Positions 8,624 through 20,518 of a stretch of DNA of 39,199 bases are shown piece after piece. Each line of letters opens with the position of its first letter. Positions within the stretch are counted from its first letter, which is position 1. The position numbers were made by a program, and so were the translations under genes. Below the pieces are notes generated by a model. The model was not told the DNA's origin, made no database searches, and saw nothing but the letters and a program-made list of their open reading frames with translations. The DNA is from Aeriscardovia sp. (lineage in GTDB: Bacteria > Actinomycetota > Actinomycetes > Actinomycetales > Bifidobacteriaceae): the NCBI GenBank assembly GCA_017537945.1, contig JAFYJT010000060.1, positions 1 through 39,199 of the forward strand, in the 5' to 3' direction.

Positions 8624-11600
8624 TTACCCTTTATCATCTTCCAAGTCTCCAATGCCTACGGAGCGGCCCCTGGGGTTTATGGCGTTTAGGGCCCGCGCCA
8701 CTTTTTCTATCTCCCTGTCCGGATCTATGAACATTCCGACCGACCATGCGAACACCGAACCCCACCCCATGGGGCTGAGCAGATCCGGAAGGCCCCGGTA
8801 TCGCAGGCGCATGGATGGGATGGACATAAACCTGGCGTCGTCGGTAAAGACGGCCAAGTCCAGCTGCCCCTCCCCTTTTCCTACCGCCAGCGGAATTTTT
8901 ACCCCGTCTTTGTAGCCCAAATAGCTCTCGGCCCCGTAGCCTTCGCGTTCCACCCTCTCTTCCAAGTCTTGAACGAGCGTGTTTGAGGGCGCGCAAGGGG
9001 AGGGGGGCAGGAAGGAAGGGGGATTTTGCGCCCATGAAATCAAGTCTTTTAGGAGCTTTGTTCCCGGCGTCAGCCTGGCCTCGTCCAAATCTTTAGCCCT
9101 GAAAGAGGAAACTACGTCCAGTTTTCTTTCAGCGAGGCATAAGGCCGAGAGGAGGAGCTTTTCCCCTCCTTCCTCTTGGATCCTCCCGAATTGCTGCATA
9201 AGGCGCCCGTCGCCCATCTTGGCGTACCCTGCGGTAATTATGACGTCCCCTTTTTGGGCCGCGGCGACGTTTGAAATGTCTTCCACGGATATGTGGGAGC
9301 TTACAAGATCCGGGCATTTTTCCCTGACGCCCATTTTCTTTACGGCTTCTGCCACGCTTTCGGCATGATCCGGGTTCAGGGCTATGACGGTCAGGTGGTA
9401 AGAAGGGCTGAGGGGGGTTTGGCTCAGCCTAAAGGCTGCAAGCTTTGCAACATATTCCGCCTCCTGATTCGTGCTCTCCACAAGATCGGAGGATCGCAAT
9501 GGGACCCCCTGGCCTGAAAGGGGGTGGCCGGCAATCCCCGGCTCGTTGCCAAATGCAGGGGGCAGCAGGACCCTTTCGACCCCGCAGTCGGAAAGGAAAG
9601 TCTGAAGCCTTTCATCGCAACGCGCCCACCTTTTAACTTCTACCCTCTGCATGAAGGAGGATAGGGCGGAAACGATAGGGGAGCAGGAAAGGCCCAGATC
9701 CGAAACTATCACGCAGCTTCTTGCCAAAGGCAAGAGGGACATTATCTCCGCGCTCTCGGCATCCTGGCACCCGTCTATTATCAACACATCGGCCAAAGCC
9801 TTGTTGGGAAGGGCAGTGGCAATCGAAGCGGGAGTGGAAGCGATTATGGGTTTTGCGAGCCTTAAAAGATCCGGGCATTCGGCCTCAAATTGGGCAAGGG
9901 AGAGGTCGAAAGAGGGGGAAGAAAGCCGGGAGTGCCAGTCATTGGCTTCATCCGCATTGGAATATAGGAACTCGGAAAGCCTGGACATGCACGAGCTTTC
10001 TATCAAGGCGGCCGCAGAAGACACGTGGGATCTGTCCAGCTCTATAAACCTCTGGGCGGTTTCGGCCAAAAGGTGGCCGTCCTGGCTGGCTATAAGCGGG
10101 GAAGACTGCACTATAAGGTCGAATACGCTTGCGTACCACGCCAATTCCAACTCGTCTCCTGCAAAAGAGGGGTTGAGCTTCCTGGATTTGAGCTCCTCTA
10201 TCAGTTCCCCTAGGCCCATCTCCCTGAGCTCTTTTTCAAGGCTTTCCCTCTCGGGCAGAGTTTCCAAAGACTTTTCAGCCCTTTTCAGATCGGAGATTTT
10301 TGCTTCTATCGCATCAAATTTTCCGCTGGAGAGGACGTTTCCCGACAAAGAAGCGGGAAGGATGCTGTCCAGGGCGGTCAAATCGGAATTTAAGGTCTCC
10401 AGATTCGAAACCATTGCATCCAGATTTTTAGGAATCGTCACTTTGGGAATTGAGCTGTAGGAGCGCCACCTTTGATACTGCAGGAACACGGCCTGCAAGG
10501 TGCCGTGAAGGTCTTCTACCTTTGCTCCGGGCTTAAGGCACCCTTTGGCTTCCTTTACAAGCTTCTTTCTTTCCCAAAAGCCCAGCTGCGAGTCCTTTCT
10601 CTCTTCTTTGCTTTTTGTGGCTTCAAGGACGGAAGGGAAGTCCAGATCAAAAACGTCCGGGGAAAAAAGATCCATGGCCCTGCGGAGGTTGTTTAGCATC
10701 GTAACGTGCTTCCCCCACTCTTCGACGGTGGACGCCTCTGGAAAACCGCACCCTCTGACTGCCGAAGCCGCCTGCTGCTTTATTTCGGGAAGCAGGGAGG
10801 AAGAGATTCTTTCCACCCTTTCCTGCGCCTTCTGCGCTTCTTCGGGCGTGAAGATGGAAGCCTTGTACCAGGGGGTGTCCCGGGGGGTGAGGGAAAAACC
10901 GCCCAATTCCCCAAAACGCTCAAGTTTTTCTGATGCCTCCCCCAGCTTCCCCTTTAGATTCTTCGCCACATCCTCATCCAGCCTCACCCTGTTGCTGGGC
11001 CTGCTCTTTTTGGATCCGAGGAGAAGGAGTTTTTCGAGCACTTGGTATGCTGACAAATCCCACGGCTCCACTTTTTTATGCAAATCTCCAAAATACTTGG
11101 AAAGGCGCGCCCTTACCCCCACCAATTCGTCCGCGATCCGGTTGAAATTTGTAACCGCCTCCTCGTTCTTAAAGCTCAAAGAATTTGAAAGCTGGGCGTC
11201 GATCTCTTTGGCAAAGTCGCGTTCGTCTACATCCAGCACAAGGTTTTTAATCCCTTCCTTTCCGGCATACCTCAGGAAGGCCTCTTTTTGCCCCCCCAGG
11301 GGGGAGGAATAGATTACGCTTTTCCCTTCGCACGCGCACCTTGAAGCGATGGCCAAGGCCAGGGAGGCCGAAGATGAAGAGGAGGGCGCGTCCAGGAAGA
11401 CGCACTGCCCCATGGAGGCCAGCTTGGCGGCGCGCCTTGCGCCGTTTGGCACGTCCCCCACTTCCTTTTCATCGTGCGGGTCCAAGTCTTCTTTTTCTAT
11501 AGGCCTTTGCACGGCCTCCTTCCCCCCCAGGAAGTCCTTTAGGATTTTTACGTCGCATTCTCCCTGCCCTACGCCTTTTATGAGGCGTAGGGCCCTGTCG

Positions 11601-12229
11601 CGGATCACCACCTCCGGATTGATGAAGCACCCCATTATGAACCGGAGTTCTGCGCTGAAGCCGTATACCATTTCCCCGACTTCCCTCGCCACCTGGCTTA
11701 TAAATTGCTCGCGGCCCGAATCCAAATTCAGCGGAAGGGAGGAAAAGTCGAATTCTATCCCAAAATCATCGCGCATGGCCCCGATAAAGGCGGGATTTAC
11801 CATGGACCTTTTTCCCAGCTTTATAGTAGTTTTCGCCGGATCCCCTTCTTCTTCGATCTCGAGGGGGTAAATGAGGATCGGCATCTGCCTGCTAGATCCG
11901 TTCCACCTTGCAATGCCGGCCGCAAGGCTGATTTTTCCAAAGCCGCACTGCTTTATTTCAGACTTGCATTGGGAAAGAATCTGCAAAAATTCCCTCCTGG
12001 CGGCGGTAAAGAGGCTCGGGTTGGGAAAAAGGAGTGGGAGGGTGACTTTGACGTTTGAAAGCAGCCTGGACTTCCCGTTCGGGCTGGCGTTGGAAAGATC
12101 GAGGCCGGCTTTCAAATTCGCTATGTTGCTCAGCGGATCCGGGGTCCTTTTTTCAAGATAGGCGTCGCTCCATTTTTTTAAATCCGCCAGCGCCTGCGCC
12201 TCCCGGGCAAGATTCTCAGATCCTTCCAT
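8624..12229 (-). CDS. Giant SF1 helicase/endonuclease-like protein with degenerate catalytic motifs
   Basis: 1201 residues, one intact frame. The layout matches the DUF4011-type SF1 helicases with a C-terminal REase-like domain: N-terminal domain (1-250), helicase core 1A (about 260-340), long coiled-coil insert (350-690), rest of the core (700-1070), nuclease-like domain (1085-1185). Catalytic motifs are eroded. At the Walker A position I read LDAPSSSSSAS (279-289) with no GKT/S, at Walker B LIIDGCQDA (816-824) with no DE, and at motif VI GGEKLLLSALCLAERKL where relatives have RLNVA-TRA. The nuclease region keeps QLDLAVF and MGWGSVFAWSVGMFIDP but reads MSIPSM where the acidic core would be. 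It is likely a scaffold or nucleic-acid-binding pseudo-enzyme. It overlaps the FHA gene by 14 bases. Confidence 0.7.
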   Translation of the reverse strand: MEGSENLAREAQALADLKKWSDAYLEKRTPDPLSNIANLKAGLDLSNASPNGKSRLLSNVKVTLPLLFPNPSLFTAARREFLQILSQCKSEIKQCGFGKISLAAGIARWNGSSRQMPILIYPLEIEEEGDPAKTTIKLGKRSMVNPAFIGAMRDDFGIEFDFSSLPLNLDSGREQFISQVAREVGEMVYGFSAELRFIMGCFINPEVVIRDRALRLIKGVGQGECDVKILKDFLGGKEAVQRPIEKEDLDPHDEKEVGDVPNGARRAAKLASMGQCVFLDAPSSSSSASLALAIASRCACEGKSVIYSSPLGGQKEAFLRYAGKEGIKNLVLDVDERDFAKEIDAQLSNSLSFKNEEAVTNFNRIADELVGVRARLSKYFGDLHKKVEPWDLSAYQVLEKLLLLGSKKSRPSNRVRLDEDVAKNLKGKLGEASEKLERFGELGGFSLTPRDTPWYKASIFTPEEAQKAQERVERISSSLLPEIKQQAASAVRGCGFPEASTVEEWGKHVTMLNNLRRAMDLFSPDVFDLDFPSVLEATKSKEERKDSQLGFWERKKLVKEAKGCLKPGAKVEDLHGTLQAVFLQYQRWRSYSSIPKVTIPKNLDAMVSNLETLNSDLTALDSILPASLSGNVLSSGKFDAIEAKISDLKRAEKSLETLPERESLEKELREMGLGELIEELKSRKLNPSFAGDELELAWYASVFDLIVQSSPLIASQDGHLLAETAQRFIELDRSHVSSAAALIESSCMSRLSEFLYSNADEANDWHSRLSSPSFDLSLAQFEAECPDLLRLAKPIIASTPASIATALPNKALADVLIIDGCQDAESAEIMSLLPLARSCVIVSDLGLSCSPIVSALSSFMQRVEVKRWARCDERLQTFLSDCGVERVLLPPAFGNEPGIAGHPLSGQGVPLRSSDLVESTNQEAEYVAKLAAFRLSQTPLSPSYHLTVIALNPDHAESVAEAVKKMGVREKCPDLVSSHISVEDISNVAAAQKGDVIITAGYAKMGDGRLMQQFGRIQEEGGEKLLLSALCLAERKLDVVSSFRAKDLDEARLTPGTKLLKDLISWAQNPPSFLPPSPCAPSNTLVQDLEERVEREGYGAESYLGYKDGVKIPLAVGKGEGQLDLAVFTDDARFMSIPSMRLRYRGLPDLLSPMGWGSVFAWSVGMFIDPDREIEKVARALNAINPRGRSVGIGDLEDDKG

Positions 12230-13283
12230 CGTTCCCTCCGTCTTTCTTGAAGGCTTGGTACCCCCTGTTGGTCTGCAGGGCCGCGCTTATCACCGGATCC
12301 CCCAAGGCCTCCAGCCACATGTAGAGATCGGAATAAAGGTTGGGGTTAAGGGCAAGGAAAGGGAGCATTTCACGGTGCTTTGCAAGTTCGAACTGCCTGG
12401 CAAAGCTTTCAGTCCTCTCCGCTTCTTCCGAAGTCATGCCGTTCTCAAGTCGTATCACCCCATTCTGCCTGCGCTTTTGCCGGCTCAGCCTCTCAAAAAG
12501 GGACCCGGCCCCCGTGCCGGCGGCAGGGAGGGGCACGGTTGCAGACGAAGGGGCGGATAGGGGCGCGGGCCCGCTTTTCAGCCTTTCTTCTATGGCTTTG
12601 TCTACAAGCTTTGCTTTCTCTTTGTTTTCCTCCTGGATTTTTTCAATATTTTCTTCTTCGGAGCTGGACTTTTGGGCTTCCTCATTCTCCGCCTCCTCCG
12701 TAGCCGAAGGTATCGGCGCTTCCCCAGGCGCTTCCTGGGCTTTCTCCCTTTTTTCCCTTACTTTTTCCGCCACCCTGTCGGCGTCTATGAGGAATGTAGG
12801 CTCCCCCTCCCTTTCCTCCATGGCCTCCCGTATGTCTTTAACGCTTCTGGGGGCCGAGGGGGCTGAGGAGGAATTGGCGAAAAGGTCCCCCTCTTTTTTG
12901 CCTTTTCCGCCCTCTTCTTCTTCGGCCGTCTTTTCAAGAAGGATGCCCACATTCCCGAGCTGCAGCCTGACGGGGGACTTGTCCAAGAGGAATTCTTCTC
13001 CAGCCGGAAGCCTGACGAGCGCCCCGTTTTTTTTCACGAGGTAGGTCCCGTTGGTGGACCCCAGATCCTTTATAGTCGCCGCGCCCCTCCTTATTTGAAG
13101 GGAGACGTGCCTTTTGCTCATGGACTTCTGAGGGTTGTCTATATTGAAACGCATAAACGAGGAGCCGGGGGTGGGAAGGTGCTTGGGGGTCCGGCCTATA
13201 ATTACCAGGTCTCCGGGCTTGAACACGCCCTTTTGCCCTGTGCCTACAACGGTTACGAGCCAATTATGCTCATTGCTCTCCAT
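12216..13283 (-). CDS. FHA-domain protein with C-terminal variant leucine-rich repeat
   Basis: 355 residues. An FHA phosphothreonine-binding domain spans about 10-110: IIGRT (R31), MSKRHVS (S56, R58, H59) and GSTNGT (75-80) are all present, so phosphopeptide binding should be intact. Residues 125-290 are a low-complexity, Glu/Ala/Pro/Lys-rich linker. The end (about 290-340) holds LAKHREMLPFLALNPN then LYMWLEALGDPVISAAL, which fits one unit of the variant leucine-rich repeat found in actinobacterial proteins. It is translated first and overlaps the helicase-like gene by 14 bases. That suggests a partnership, perhaps recruitment under Ser/Thr kinase control. The start ATG has a GGGGG purine box 5 bases upstream. 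Confidence 0.85.
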   Translation of the reverse strand: MESNEHNWLVTVVGTGQKGVFKPGDLVIIGRTPKHLPTPGSSFMRFNIDNPQKSMSKRHVSLQIRRGAATIKDLGSTNGTYLVKKNGALVRLPAGEEFLLDKSPVRLQLGNVGILLEKTAEEEEGGKGKKEGDLFANSSSAPSAPRSVKDIREAMEEREGEPTFLIDADRVAEKVREKREKAQEAPGEAPIPSATEEAENEEAQKSSSEEENIEKIQEENKEKAKLVDKAIEERLKSGPAPLSAPSSATVPLPAAGTGAGSLFERLSRQKRRQNGVIRLENGMTSEEAERTESFARQFELAKHREMLPFLALNPNLYSDLYMWLEALGDPVISAALQTNRGYQAFKKDGGNDGRI

Positions 13284-13378: not shown

Positions 13379-13411
13379 AAAATTAGGCAACTACTTAAAG
13401 TAGTTGCCTAA
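13379..13411 (-). terminator. rplL: Rho-independent terminator of the rplJL operon
   Basis: A perfect 14-base inverted repeat (TTAGGCAACTACTT, one base, then its complement; 13383-13411) lies 20 bases after the rplL stop. On the minus strand it is followed by TTTT. It ends the rplJ-rplL transcript before the FHA gene. Confidence 0.8.
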
Positions 13412-13431
13412 CAGCCTTTCAAAGGGAAAGC

Positions 13432-16881: not shown

Positions 16882-18597
16882 CTATTCGGCGTTTTTTGCC
16901 CCCTCCAGTATGTCGGCAGGCACGTCCTCCAATTTTGCGTCTTTGCCCCAAATGTGCTTTATCTCCACGCCCATGGGGTTCTGGTCATAACTGAGCACCT
17001 CCGTAGGGATGTTGGAAAGGCTTTTTGCAGGCTTACCCATCCCTTCAATCTGCCAAGTAAAAGGAGAGAACGCATTATTGGGATCGGCCCAATTGCGTTT
17101 GCGGGAAACCAGGTAGATAATCCAGCTCAAAATAATCACGAATACGGCTATAGCCAAAATCACTACAACGTAAGTAACGGGGGATCCTACCTCCTGGGCC
17201 ACTTGGGCGGGAGGCCAAACGGAAAGGAGCATCCCAAATCCGCAGGCTATAAGGCCTACTACGCATACTATCCAGCCTCCGACTTTTCCTCCGGGGATTT
17301 TGAAGCCCCTGGGCCTGTTGGGCTGGTTGTATTTCAGCCTCAGGTAGGTTACAAACATCAGGACGTAGTAGAAAAGGTAGAGGAGCGTGATGGCTTGGGT
17401 AATCAAAATCACAAATCCTTCCACATTTGGAAGCAGCGTCACCAGGAATGCGATTATCGTCATGAACACGCATTGGATGTACATAAGCTTGGAAGGCATT
17501 CCGTGCTTGTTGTAGTTTTGCGTCCACTTGGGAAGAAAGCCCGCTTTTCCGACTTGCCCCAGCATAAAAGAGGGTCCGGCGAAGCTTGTAACCGTCATTG
17601 CTATCGTGTTGCACAAAAGCGCCCAAGTGAGCACCATGTAGAGCCATGGGAAGCCGAAAGTGGCGCCTAAAACCCTGAAGGTGGCAAAAAGGGCGTAAAG
17701 AACGTTGAGCTGCCCGTAGGGGATAACGGTAGCGATAATCAGGGTGCCGACAACGAAAATAAGGAAAGCCAAAATCATAGCGATGATGATGGCCTGTGGG
17801 AACTCCTTTTCAGGATCCTTAAGCTCCTTAATATGCGCGGCGTTCATATCTACGCCCGCATAGCTGAAAAGTACGCCGGCAGCCAGGGAAAGCGTGGAAA
17901 GCCCCTGCCACTTGGGGATCAGATTCGCCCCGTTCCAGCTCATGGCAGAGTGGTGCCCCTCGCAGAACCAGACTATGACCAGGACAATCATCAGCCCCAG
18001 AGGGATAAGGCTGCCTATCATTACCCCGTACTTTGCTACCGAAGCGAAGATCTTCAGCCCCTTGGTTGCCAAGAAGGCCAGGAACCAATAGAAGCAAAGC
18101 CAGCCTATGACAATCCAAATTTCAAATTTAGGATTTTCCGCAAAAGCGACTGCTTTATTGAAATAGGGTCCGTAGAAAAGGATAGTGGCCGCTCCGGAGG
18201 CCGGGGCTACGCCGAAATTAATGGAGCACTCCATCCAAAGGATGAATAGGCAGCAGAAGGCCCAGCCTTTTCCGATCCCTTCTCCGACCCATCTGAAAAT
18301 CCCCCCCTTGCGGGGCCAGCCGGTAGCAAGTTCCGCCGTTACCAGCGCCGTCGGAATGAAGAATACTATGGCGCCTATCGCAAAGAACGTAATAGATGAA
18401 AGGCCATAAAAAGCTTGCTGCGGATCATTTGCCAGGCCCGCTATGGTGGCCACGTTCATCATGGCCAACGCAAACATTGACATGTACTGGCGCTTGGCAG
18501 CCTTCGGAATCTTTGGATAATTCGAGGCGTCAGGCACTCCCCCACTTCGGCTCATCCCCTGAGCTACATCGCTCCGGGGACTGTCTGCATCTGTCAT
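16882..18597 (-). CDS. GadC-like APC amino acid antiporter (copy 1)
   Basis: 571 residues from the ATG at 18597, preferred over an ATG 45 bases upstream because GAAAGTGG precedes it and because the N-terminus then matches the paralogue. About 12 TM helices. It begins SMFALAMMNVATIAGLAND, with TM3 VGEGIGKGWAFCC, and resembles the glutamate/GABA antiporter family that exchanges an amino acid for its decarboxylation product. The cytoplasmic tail KSLSNIPTEVLSYDQNPMG is shared almost word for word with the next gene and may be the equivalent of the C-plug that gates GadC. No decarboxylase lies in the window. It has its own terminator. The substrate is an inference. Confidence 0.82.
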   Translation of the reverse strand: MTDADSPRSDVAQGMSRSGGVPDASNYPKIPKAAKRQYMSMFALAMMNVATIAGLANDPQQAFYGLSSITFFAIGAIVFFIPTALVTAELATGWPRKGGIFRWVGEGIGKGWAFCCLFILWMECSINFGVAPASGAATILFYGPYFNKAVAFAENPKFEIWIVIGWLCFYWFLAFLATKGLKIFASVAKYGVMIGSLIPLGLMIVLVIVWFCEGHHSAMSWNGANLIPKWQGLSTLSLAAGVLFSYAGVDMNAAHIKELKDPEKEFPQAIIIAMILAFLIFVVGTLIIATVIPYGQLNVLYALFATFRVLGATFGFPWLYMVLTWALLCNTIAMTVTSFAGPSFMLGQVGKAGFLPKWTQNYNKHGMPSKLMYIQCVFMTIIAFLVTLLPNVEGFVILITQAITLLYLFYYVLMFVTYLRLKYNQPNRPRGFKIPGGKVGGWIVCVVGLIACGFGMLLSVWPPAQVAQEVGSPVTYVVVILAIAVFVIILSWIIYLVSRKRNWADPNNAFSPFTWQIEGMGKPAKSLSNIPTEVLSYDQNPMGVEIKHIWGKDAKLEDVPADILEGAKNAE

Positions 18598-18694
18598 AAG
18601 TCCACTTTCTCGAAACGAACTATACTTCGATATAAAAAGCATCTGGTGCTTTTGTTTACTTTAATGATAGATAACTCCAACTAAATACTGAAAT

Positions 18695-18732
18695 AAAAAA
18701 AAGAAAACGTTACCACCCTCGGGGTGGCAACG
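18695..18732 (-). terminator. Terminator of the second GadC-like permease gene
   Basis: On the minus strand the hairpin GTTGCCACC / GGTGGTAAC (one mismatch, about 18709-18732) is followed by TTTTCTTTTTTTT. It lies 28 bases after the stop codon at 18761. Confidence 0.88.
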
Positions 18733-18760
18733 CCCTCCTGTAAGAATCCTAAGTTAGCGG

Positions 18761-20518
18761 CTAGGCCATATCAGCCGAAGCTTTAACGTCATCTACCAAT
18801 TGTGAAGGCAGGTTTGACAACTGATCATTGGGGCTGAAGGGATGCTTAATCGGCATCCCCATGGGGTTCTGATCGTAAGAAAGGACTGTCGTGGGGACGT
18901 TGGACAAGGACTTGGTAGGCCTGCTGAAGCCTTCAATCTGCCAGGTGAGGGGGGCGAACTTGTTTTCAGGATCCGCCCAGTTGTGCTTGCGGGCCGCCCA
19001 GTAGATAAGGAACGGAATTGCAAGAATTATGCAGCAGATGACGATTATCGTCCATACGTAGACTTCGGGAGATCCTACTTCCTGGGACACTTGGGCAGGA
19101 GGCCATATGGACATCAAAATCCCGAGGCAGGAAGCCAAGATGCCGATAATCGCCACAATCCACGCGCCGGTCTTCCCTCCGGGGCACTTGAACGCCCTGG
19201 GCCTGTTGGGCTGGGTGTACCTTAGGCGCACAAAAGTACAGAACATGAGGATGTAGTAGGCGAGGTAAAGGACGGTCATAGCTTGGGTGAGGAGTATGAC
19301 GAAGCCCTCGACATTTGGTATCAGCTCTATTACGAATGACAAAATTGTCAGGATAACGCACTGTATAAACATGAGGGCTGAAGGCATGCCGTGCTTGTTC
19401 GTGCGCTGAAGCCATTTGGGAAGCATCCCCGCGCGGCCGGACTGCCCCAGCATGAGGGAGGGGGCTGCGAAAGCGGTAATGTTTCCGGCTATCATATTGA
19501 AAATGCCAAGGTACACTACCACAAGGTAGAGCATGGGAAACCCGATTGTGGCGCCCAGAGACTTGAATACGGCGTTTAAGGTGTAAATGACGTTGATCTG
19601 GCTTTCAGGCACGATGACTGCCACGATCAGCGTGCTGAAGATAAAGATGCACAGGCAAATGAAAATGGTAAGAAGGAGCGCCCTGGGGTACTGCCTTTCG
19701 GGGTTTTTAAGCTGCTTGACGTAGGCGGCGTTCATATCGATTCCCGCATAGCTGAAGAACACGCTGGCCGCCAGGGCTATAGTCGACATCCCCTGCCACG
19801 GAGGGAGCAAAGCCGATCCGGAAAAAGAGCAAGCGGCCCTGTGGCCTTCGCCCAGCCAGACAAATATCAGGATGATCATAAACACCAGGGGGAGGATCGT
19901 GCCTACGGTAACTCCCCAGGAAGCAATCTTATCGAAAGCCTTCACGCCTCGGCTGGCGACCCAGGCAAGCCCCCAGAGGAAGACGAGCCAGGCAATCATT
20001 ATGCCTATAAAGCCGCCTTCCCCCAGGTACTTTGTGGGATTTTCGGCAAAGGCGATAGCCTTATTGAAATTCGGACTGAAGAACAGGATGGTGGAGGTGT
20101 AGGAGGCCGGGATCTGGGCTAAGACCAGGGCCTGCTGGATCCAGAGGATGAAGACGCACATAAAGCCCCATCCTCTTCCGACCCCTTCGCTTACCCATCG
20201 GAAAATTCCGCCGTTTTCCGGCCAGCCGGTGGCAAGCTCCGCCGCCACGAGGGCCGTCGGAATAAAGAACACTATGGCGCCGATTATGAAGAACGTGACG
20301 GAGGAGAAGCCATAGAAAGCCATCTGAACGGAATTTCCTATTCCCGCGATAATGGCAACATTCATCATTGCCAGCGAAAGCAGGGAAACGTAGGTCTTTT
20401 TCGTTTTTGGATCCAAATGCAGAACCGGATAATTCGATCCGTGGTTGGGGACTGAATAACTTTCCGCCTGCGTTACAGTGGAAGTGTTACTACTTGCACT
20501 ACCATCTCCACTGTCCAT
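18761..20518 (-). CDS. GadC-like APC amino acid antiporter (copy 2)
   Basis: 585 residues, a full-length tandem paralogue of the downstream copy 1. Both have YVSLLSLAMMNVA/YMSMFALAMMNVA at TM1, LVAAELATGWPENGGIFRW versus LVTAELATGWPRKGGIFRW, and the same C-terminal tail (KSLSN, then VLSYDQNPMG). About 12 TM helices are predicted. Where copy 1 has WMECSINFGVAP after TM3, this copy has WIQQALVLAQIP, so the substrate pockets may differ. The start ATG has GGAAGG at a normal distance. An inverted repeat lies 20-45 bases upstream. It is separately terminated, so the two copies look independently expressed. Confidence 0.82.
   Translation of the reverse strand: MDSGDGSASSNTSTVTQAESYSVPNHGSNYPVLHLDPKTKKTYVSLLSLAMMNVAIIAGIGNSVQMAFYGFSSVTFFIIGAIVFFIPTALVAAELATGWPENGGIFRWVSEGVGRGWGFMCVFILWIQQALVLAQIPASYTSTILFFSPNFNKAIAFAENPTKYLGEGGFIGIMIAWLVFLWGLAWVASRGVKAFDKIASWGVTVGTILPLVFMIILIFVWLGEGHRAACSFSGSALLPPWQGMSTIALAASVFFSYAGIDMNAAYVKQLKNPERQYPRALLLTIFICLCIFIFSTLIVAVIVPESQINVIYTLNAVFKSLGATIGFPMLYLVVVYLGIFNMIAGNITAFAAPSLMLGQSGRAGMLPKWLQRTNKHGMPSALMFIQCVILTILSFVIELIPNVEGFVILLTQAMTVLYLAYYILMFCTFVRLRYTQPNRPRAFKCPGGKTGAWIVAIIGILASCLGILMSIWPPAQVSQEVGSPEVYVWTIIVICCIILAIPFLIYWAARKHNWADPENKFAPLTWQIEGFSRPTKSLSNVPTTVLSYDQNPMGMPIKHPFSPNDQLSNLPSQLVDDVKASADMA

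Follow-up and report, generated by a model that had tools for sequence, protein, structure and literature searches.

The window analyzed here, a 39,199-nucleotide stretch of Aeriscardovia DNA from a small Bifidobacteriaceae genome, contains on its minus strand (8624–12229) a gene for a protein of 1201 residues that appears to retain the fold of a helicase-nuclease without the catalytic residues of either activity. The favored reading, held with roughly even confidence, is that this protein is an old, vertically inherited pseudo-enzyme repurposed as an ATP-independent platform and tied in bifidobacteria to phosphothreonine signaling. The dead enzyme probably has some other job, which may be a structural, sensor or partner role. 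An earlier note on this DNA had reported an uninterrupted frame of 1201 codons, and ORF calling recovered exactly this single frame on the minus strand. The ORF is a real gene, because matches to it were found in 52 of 59 relatives, its dN/dS is low, and its confident AlphaFold2 (AF2) model matches SF1B helicases. It takes up 3.6 kb of a genome of 816,645 bases (0.82 Mb; 100% complete as reported), of which the window is contig C8. The features of this gene and of its upstream neighbor that are given below by coordinates lie on the minus strand.

The AF2 model of the full protein, built from 45 sequences, has a mean pLDDT of 87.6 and a pTM of 0.78. Compared with the PDB, it aligns with IGHMBP2, DNA2, and UPF1 at Z 16–17 over ~450–520 residues, the best structural match being IGHMBP2 (Z up to 17.2), and a profile search of PDB sequences returned SMUBP-2/UPF1/DNA2 together with very weak matches to Vsr endonuclease. 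Two RecA-like domains are found in UPF1-like order in the model, in the PDB comparison, and in the profile matches, and the helicase/nuclease fold proposed from the sequence is supported. The model predicts a helicase core of the SF1B type (UPF1/IGHMBP2/DNA2-like) that carries a helical insertion of 440 residues and is followed, at the C-terminus, by a domain of Vsr type (MTES_1575). Unlike UPF1, IGHMBP2, and DNA2, with which it shares the RecA-like core fold, the window protein lacks the catalytic motifs and carries the large helical insertion, which has no clear PDB match, and the Vsr-type domain. Its N-terminal region (residues 1–245; 11495–12229) is equivalent in the alignment to the DUF4011 region of intact relatives. 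Pfam DUF4011 (PF13195) scores above cut-off in intact relatives, with matches in L039, L042, and L044, and no match to it was found in the window protein or its genome; the earlier placement among DUF4011-type proteins therefore holds by way of the intact relatives, while the Pfam model misses the window protein itself.

The insertion lies in RecA1 (residues 356–795; 9845–11164), is all-helical, and forms a long, well-conserved block of the family. Modeled alone by AF2, it reached a pLDDT of 94.5; no significant match to it was found in the PDB (best E 0.099), and structural comparison gave Z up to 8.5, mostly with unrelated coiled coils, a result that does not by itself establish a novel fold. 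Net charge was considered as a pointer to nucleic-acid binding and rejected, since the insertion is acidic overall (pI 5.4), as it is in intact relatives, and its charge therefore gives no such hint; a protein ligand is thus as possible as DNA or RNA. The C-terminal domain (8678–8980) has a Vsr/MTES_1575-type nuclease fold according to Pfam and the alignment, with both catalytic carboxylates replaced. It accounts for the sole Pfam match in the protein, which is sub-threshold (E=1.6e-4) at 22.2 bits against the gathering score of 38.2 bits for REase_MTES_1575 (PF18741), a score that the related copies L028 and L050 do reach.

The loss of catalytic residues was followed in an alignment of 111 family members with 23 family codes, in which four marks were scored per sequence, namely the Walker GK, the motif II DE, the nuclease D, and the nuclease E. 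Where intact copies read GPPGTGKSQTI in Walker A, the window protein reads DAPSSSSSASL (residues 280–290), within a loop identified as degenerate by alignment and pairwise identity (FLDAPSSSSSASLA, residues 278–291; 11357–11398). The VVFDEASQ of motif II has become LIIDGCQD, with D819 kept and E820 changed to G (LADVLIIDGCQD, residues 812–823; 9761–9796), and the RRLNVAITRAR of motif VI has become KLLLSALCLAE, in which the arginine is gone (GEKLLLSALCLAERK, residues 1022–1036; 9122–9166). The Q-motif Q is replaced by R. Alignment and conservation show the motif V block to be retained (AGYAKMGDGRLMQQFG, residues 1000–1015; 9185–9232). At the nuclease site, IDLAV has become IPLAV (D to P1113) and AVESDG has become AVFTDD (E to F1128). 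The window protein thus has neither the set expected of an active SF1 helicase (GK[ST] in Walker A, DE in motif II, and R in motif VI) nor that of an active Vsr/MTES_1575-type nuclease (the D of IDLAV and the E of ExD). Throughout the 27 aligned Bifidobacteriaceae proteins GK[ST] and DE are absent, and none of the four marks is kept in any of them. Helicase landmarks that are recognizable but lack catalytic residues, as the earlier note had described them, are therefore confirmed by alignment to intact relatives. Its account of the nuclease core was right in that the catalytic residues are lost, although the MSIPSM that it singled out (~1135–1140) adjoins the core and the lost sites are P1113 and F1128.

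These replacements suggest that catalytic activity has been lost, and the protein fits the description of a pseudohelicase, in which the motifs are lost and the fold and gene are kept by selection. It is improbable that nucleotide binding or hydrolysis, or nucleic-acid cleavage, persists by means of replacement residues. Such activity could draw on the D819 kept in motif II and on a new conserved acidic pair, D1130–D1131, at the former nuclease site; however, no stretch measured in the family is less conserved than the Walker loop (0.24), the nuclease D is proline in 27 of 27 Bifidobacteriaceae members, and neither the R of motif VI nor the Q of the Q-motif remains.

Among the 111 aligned sequences, 73 are without any of the four marks and 6 have all four; the copies seen to be fully intact come from just three families, two within the order and one beyond it. 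Loss of the Walker A K always goes with loss of the motif II DE, and neither occurs singly. Three members (L044, L041, and L045, of family codes f5, f6, and f19) have lost the Walker lysine and kept the nuclease ExD; they represent an intermediate stage and could be motor-less nucleases. Family code f17 holds both intact and Walker-less copies (L042, L157, L173, and L180 versus L184 and L190), so that a younger, independent inactivation is open to study there. Recent decay, with orthologues still carrying intact Walker motifs, had been raised as a possibility; no such orthologue occurs among the members examined from the window’s family (0/27), every intact copy seen belongs to another family, and the loss is therefore taken to be ancient.

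A FastTree tree was built without the motif columns and rooted on few outgroup rows; some rows are long-branched, and with the exact counts to be read as provisional, the tree follows families (21 family-label changes versus a minimum of 20), the Walker state needs 4 changes, and the nuclease E state needs ten. We place one of the Walker changes at the base of a clade of 86 rows and the rest within f17 and in families that do not belong to the order, and loss of the nuclease E covers the entire clade formed by Bifidobacteriaceae and five other families. Judged from the aligned sequences, the catalytic losses were stepwise and old.

Within the order, which we take to be Actinomycetales of the GTDB, 117 of the 119 genomes sampled have a match, as do 55 of 56 genera; full-length matches outside the order are scattered. 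In Bifidobacteriaceae, the neighbors of the gene are rplJ, mscL, MTHFS, or SepX genes, and the MTHFS (5-formyltetrahydrofolate cyclo-ligase) gene also lies close by in four genomes from other families, a shared neighborhood that points to vertical descent. The gene looks like a vertically inherited core gene rather than a mobile defense gene.

This distribution bears on the relation to anti-phage systems. NCBIfam and PADLOC gave partial matches to ProA (E=1e-43; 149 bits, against an equivalog cut-off of 1500 bits), Hhe (38 bits, against an equivalog cut-off of 2000 bits), and PDC-S37 (E=4e-50). These are the best named profile matches of the window protein and are far stronger for its intact relatives, which are DUF4011 + AAA_11/12 + MTES_1575 proteins with anti-phage ProA and Hhe as their nearest named relatives. 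The profile similarity and the intact relatives suggest descent from a defense-type enzyme. In contrast to ProA, Hhe, and PDC-S37, which are patchy defense genes, the window protein belongs to a family that is a near-universal core gene of the order; it is also shorter, falls far below the curated cut-offs, and lacks the catalytic residues. An anti-phage sensor that still serves in defense, as ProA and Hhe do, is accordingly a rather unlikely reading: the nearest named profiles (ProA and PDC-S37) speak for it, while the scores far under the ProA and Hhe cut-offs, the vertical and nearly order-wide rather than patchy occurrence, and a housekeeping neighborhood in place of a defense island speak against it.

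The pattern of selection further informs the likely role of the protein. For Aeriscardovia pairs with unsaturated dS, a simple counting method applied within this genus only gave dN/dS of 0.06–0.09 (~0.07), within the range of the flanking genes; together with the presence of the gene in nearly all sampled order genomes, this upholds the claim that selection has kept the scaffold. Recent decay in a reduced genome was rejected as a candidate. Gene decay is common in small genomes such as this one, but five Aeriscardovia genomes and the family at large keep the frame uninterrupted, dN/dS is low, and the losses are family-wide and occur equally in genera with genomes of 1.1–2.7 Mb, which makes this explanation barely credible. 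Nor is it likely that the protein inhibits an intact paralogue or dimerizes with one, a role that the earlier note had entertained in mentioning an inhibitor. A second, larger ProA-like relative does occur in several order-level genomes, yet in the window’s genome no second copy of the pseudo-helicase was found while selection on the gene is strong; this role is thus very improbable here.

Conservation, taken as mean pairwise identity per block, is ordered inversely in Bifidobacteriaceae and in intact relatives. In the small intact sample (7), identity over the blocks measured is highest in the Walker loop (0.85) and lowest in the insertion (0.43), whereas in Bifidobacteriaceae the values are 0.54 for the insertion, 0.55 for the nuclease domain, 0.56 for motif V, and 0.24 for the Walker loop. 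When the columns that are fixed in intact copies are followed into the dead clade, 35% of them persist in the insertion and nuclease region and 10–11% in the RecA parts. The altered nuclease site is itself conserved (IPLAV...TDD..FM...S.R.R.R), and the replacements P1113 and D1131 are fixed at 96% in the dead clade. The main targets of selection in Bifidobacteriaceae are now the helical insertion, the region of motif V, and the nuclease domain in its dead form, so the protein most likely offers a binding platform, independent of ATP, to another protein, a nucleic-acid structure, or both.

The main mechanistic rival is a RecC-like role beside AdnAB-like genes. RecC and AddB are non-catalytic, helicase-nuclease-like subunits that read Chi in RecBCD and AddAB. 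By analogy, the window protein could be a non-catalytic subunit of an active helicase-nuclease that reads a DNA sequence or end, an explanation that is unlikely though still the strongest of the competitors. A dead SF1 helicase and a dead nuclease in one full-length chain reproduce the RecC layout, that of a scaffold with both folds and without catalytic residues. RecBCD chains are also among the Foldseek matches, at low TM-score, and an AdnAB-like pair, two adjacent large ORFs with PDDEXK_1 nuclease domains, is present in the genome (G000:C34:25399–30001). These genes are unlinked to the window, however, lying on contig C34 rather than C8, and the fold is closest to UPF1-like SF1B helicases with a Vsr-type domain and not to the RecC type; in contrast to RecC and AddB, the protein belongs to another SF1 branch and nuclease fold and has no demonstrated active partner.

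Pseudohelicases are already known. One is PriA of Deinococcus radiodurans, in which the helicase motifs are gone while DNA binding persists and there is evidence that the protein interacts with DnaB (PMC4504706). It resembles the window protein as a bacterial helicase that has lost motifs in one lineage and differs from it in belonging to another helicase family with a known pathway, while the window protein has lost a nuclease site as well. Among the papers searched, we found no description of an order-wide core pseudo-helicase and pseudo-nuclease with all stages of inactivation living, of DUF4011 in such a context, of PDC-S37 or ProA by name, or of a bifidobacterial pseudo-helicase with FHA. 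The main text of the essential-gene survey of Bifidobacterium breve UCC2003 names no helicase or FHA gene (PMC5514069).

In crown Bifidobacteriaceae, the gene adjoins, in nearly every genome in which both are readable, a gene for a protein with Pfam FHA and LRV_2 domains above cut-off, in keeping with the FHA partner suggested earlier. In the window, this gene (355 residues; 12216–13283) lies directly upstream and runs 14 bp into the beginning of the pseudo-helicase gene, an overlap accompanied by a ribosome-binding-like GGAGG. The FHA signature GR..SxRH..STNG is present in the window partner and its residues are intact in most partners, so that the phosphothreonine-binding residues look intact by sequence. 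Ser/Thr kinase domains and four further FHA matches occur in the window’s genome; the two proteins may make physical contact, with a possible link to these kinases. A terminator-like hairpin with a 14-pair stem (13382–13412, minus strand), found upstream of the FHA gene in a consensus scan in which such sites are not enriched overall, follows a reading frame taken from its sequence to be rplL, suggesting that the pair is a separate transcription unit. In other families, the FHA partner was not found in the stretches examined or among 12 genomes searched; since the adjacency is confined to crown Bifidobacteriaceae, FHA cannot account for the retention of the pseudo-helicase across the order.

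The platform reading can be set out as a sequence of steps. The ancestor would have combined an SF1B helicase of the DUF4011 type with a nuclease domain resembling Vsr. Most families of the order would share an ancestor that had already lost the ATPase site (the Walker A K with the motif II DE); on the branch to Bifidobacteriaceae and several other families, motif VI and the nuclease carboxylates would then have gone as well, with the fold kept after these losses. In crown Bifidobacteriaceae, the gene forms a two-gene unit with that of the FHA-LRV_2 protein, which could recruit clients that Ser/Thr kinases have phosphorylated. A bolder version, offered tentatively and with distinctly less confidence, is that a helicase-nuclease of the anti-phage type became a domesticated gene at the base of most of the order, was switched off stepwise (ATPase first, nuclease later), and turned into a core platform wired into bifidobacterial Ser/Thr phospho-signaling through the FHA-LRV_2 adaptor. 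If true, a relative of phage-defense enzymes has been turned into a housekeeping part. A core pseudo-enzyme spanning an order points to an unrecognized process that needs shape rather than chemistry, and the pseudo-helicase is singled out as a target among core genes still unexplained in bifidobacteria and in the order at large. Since all stages (intact, ATPase-dead, and fully dead) are alive in present families, the non-catalytic role is directly testable by comparison.

Several smaller observations concern the partner and the genomes. The linker of the FHA-LRV_2 protein varies except for a short conserved motif, usually F/YEPGSVFDRL among the partners and GSLFERLSR in the window (12480–12506), which is a candidate docking peptide. 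In two genomes, G004 (95% complete) and G013 (99%), both the pseudo-helicase and its FHA partner are undetected, through joint loss or an assembly gap; because the two genes adjoin, a single gap may account for both. Elsewhere in the window, two tandem genes for GadC-like glutamate/GABA antiporters (16882–20518) occur in this 0.82 Mb genome.
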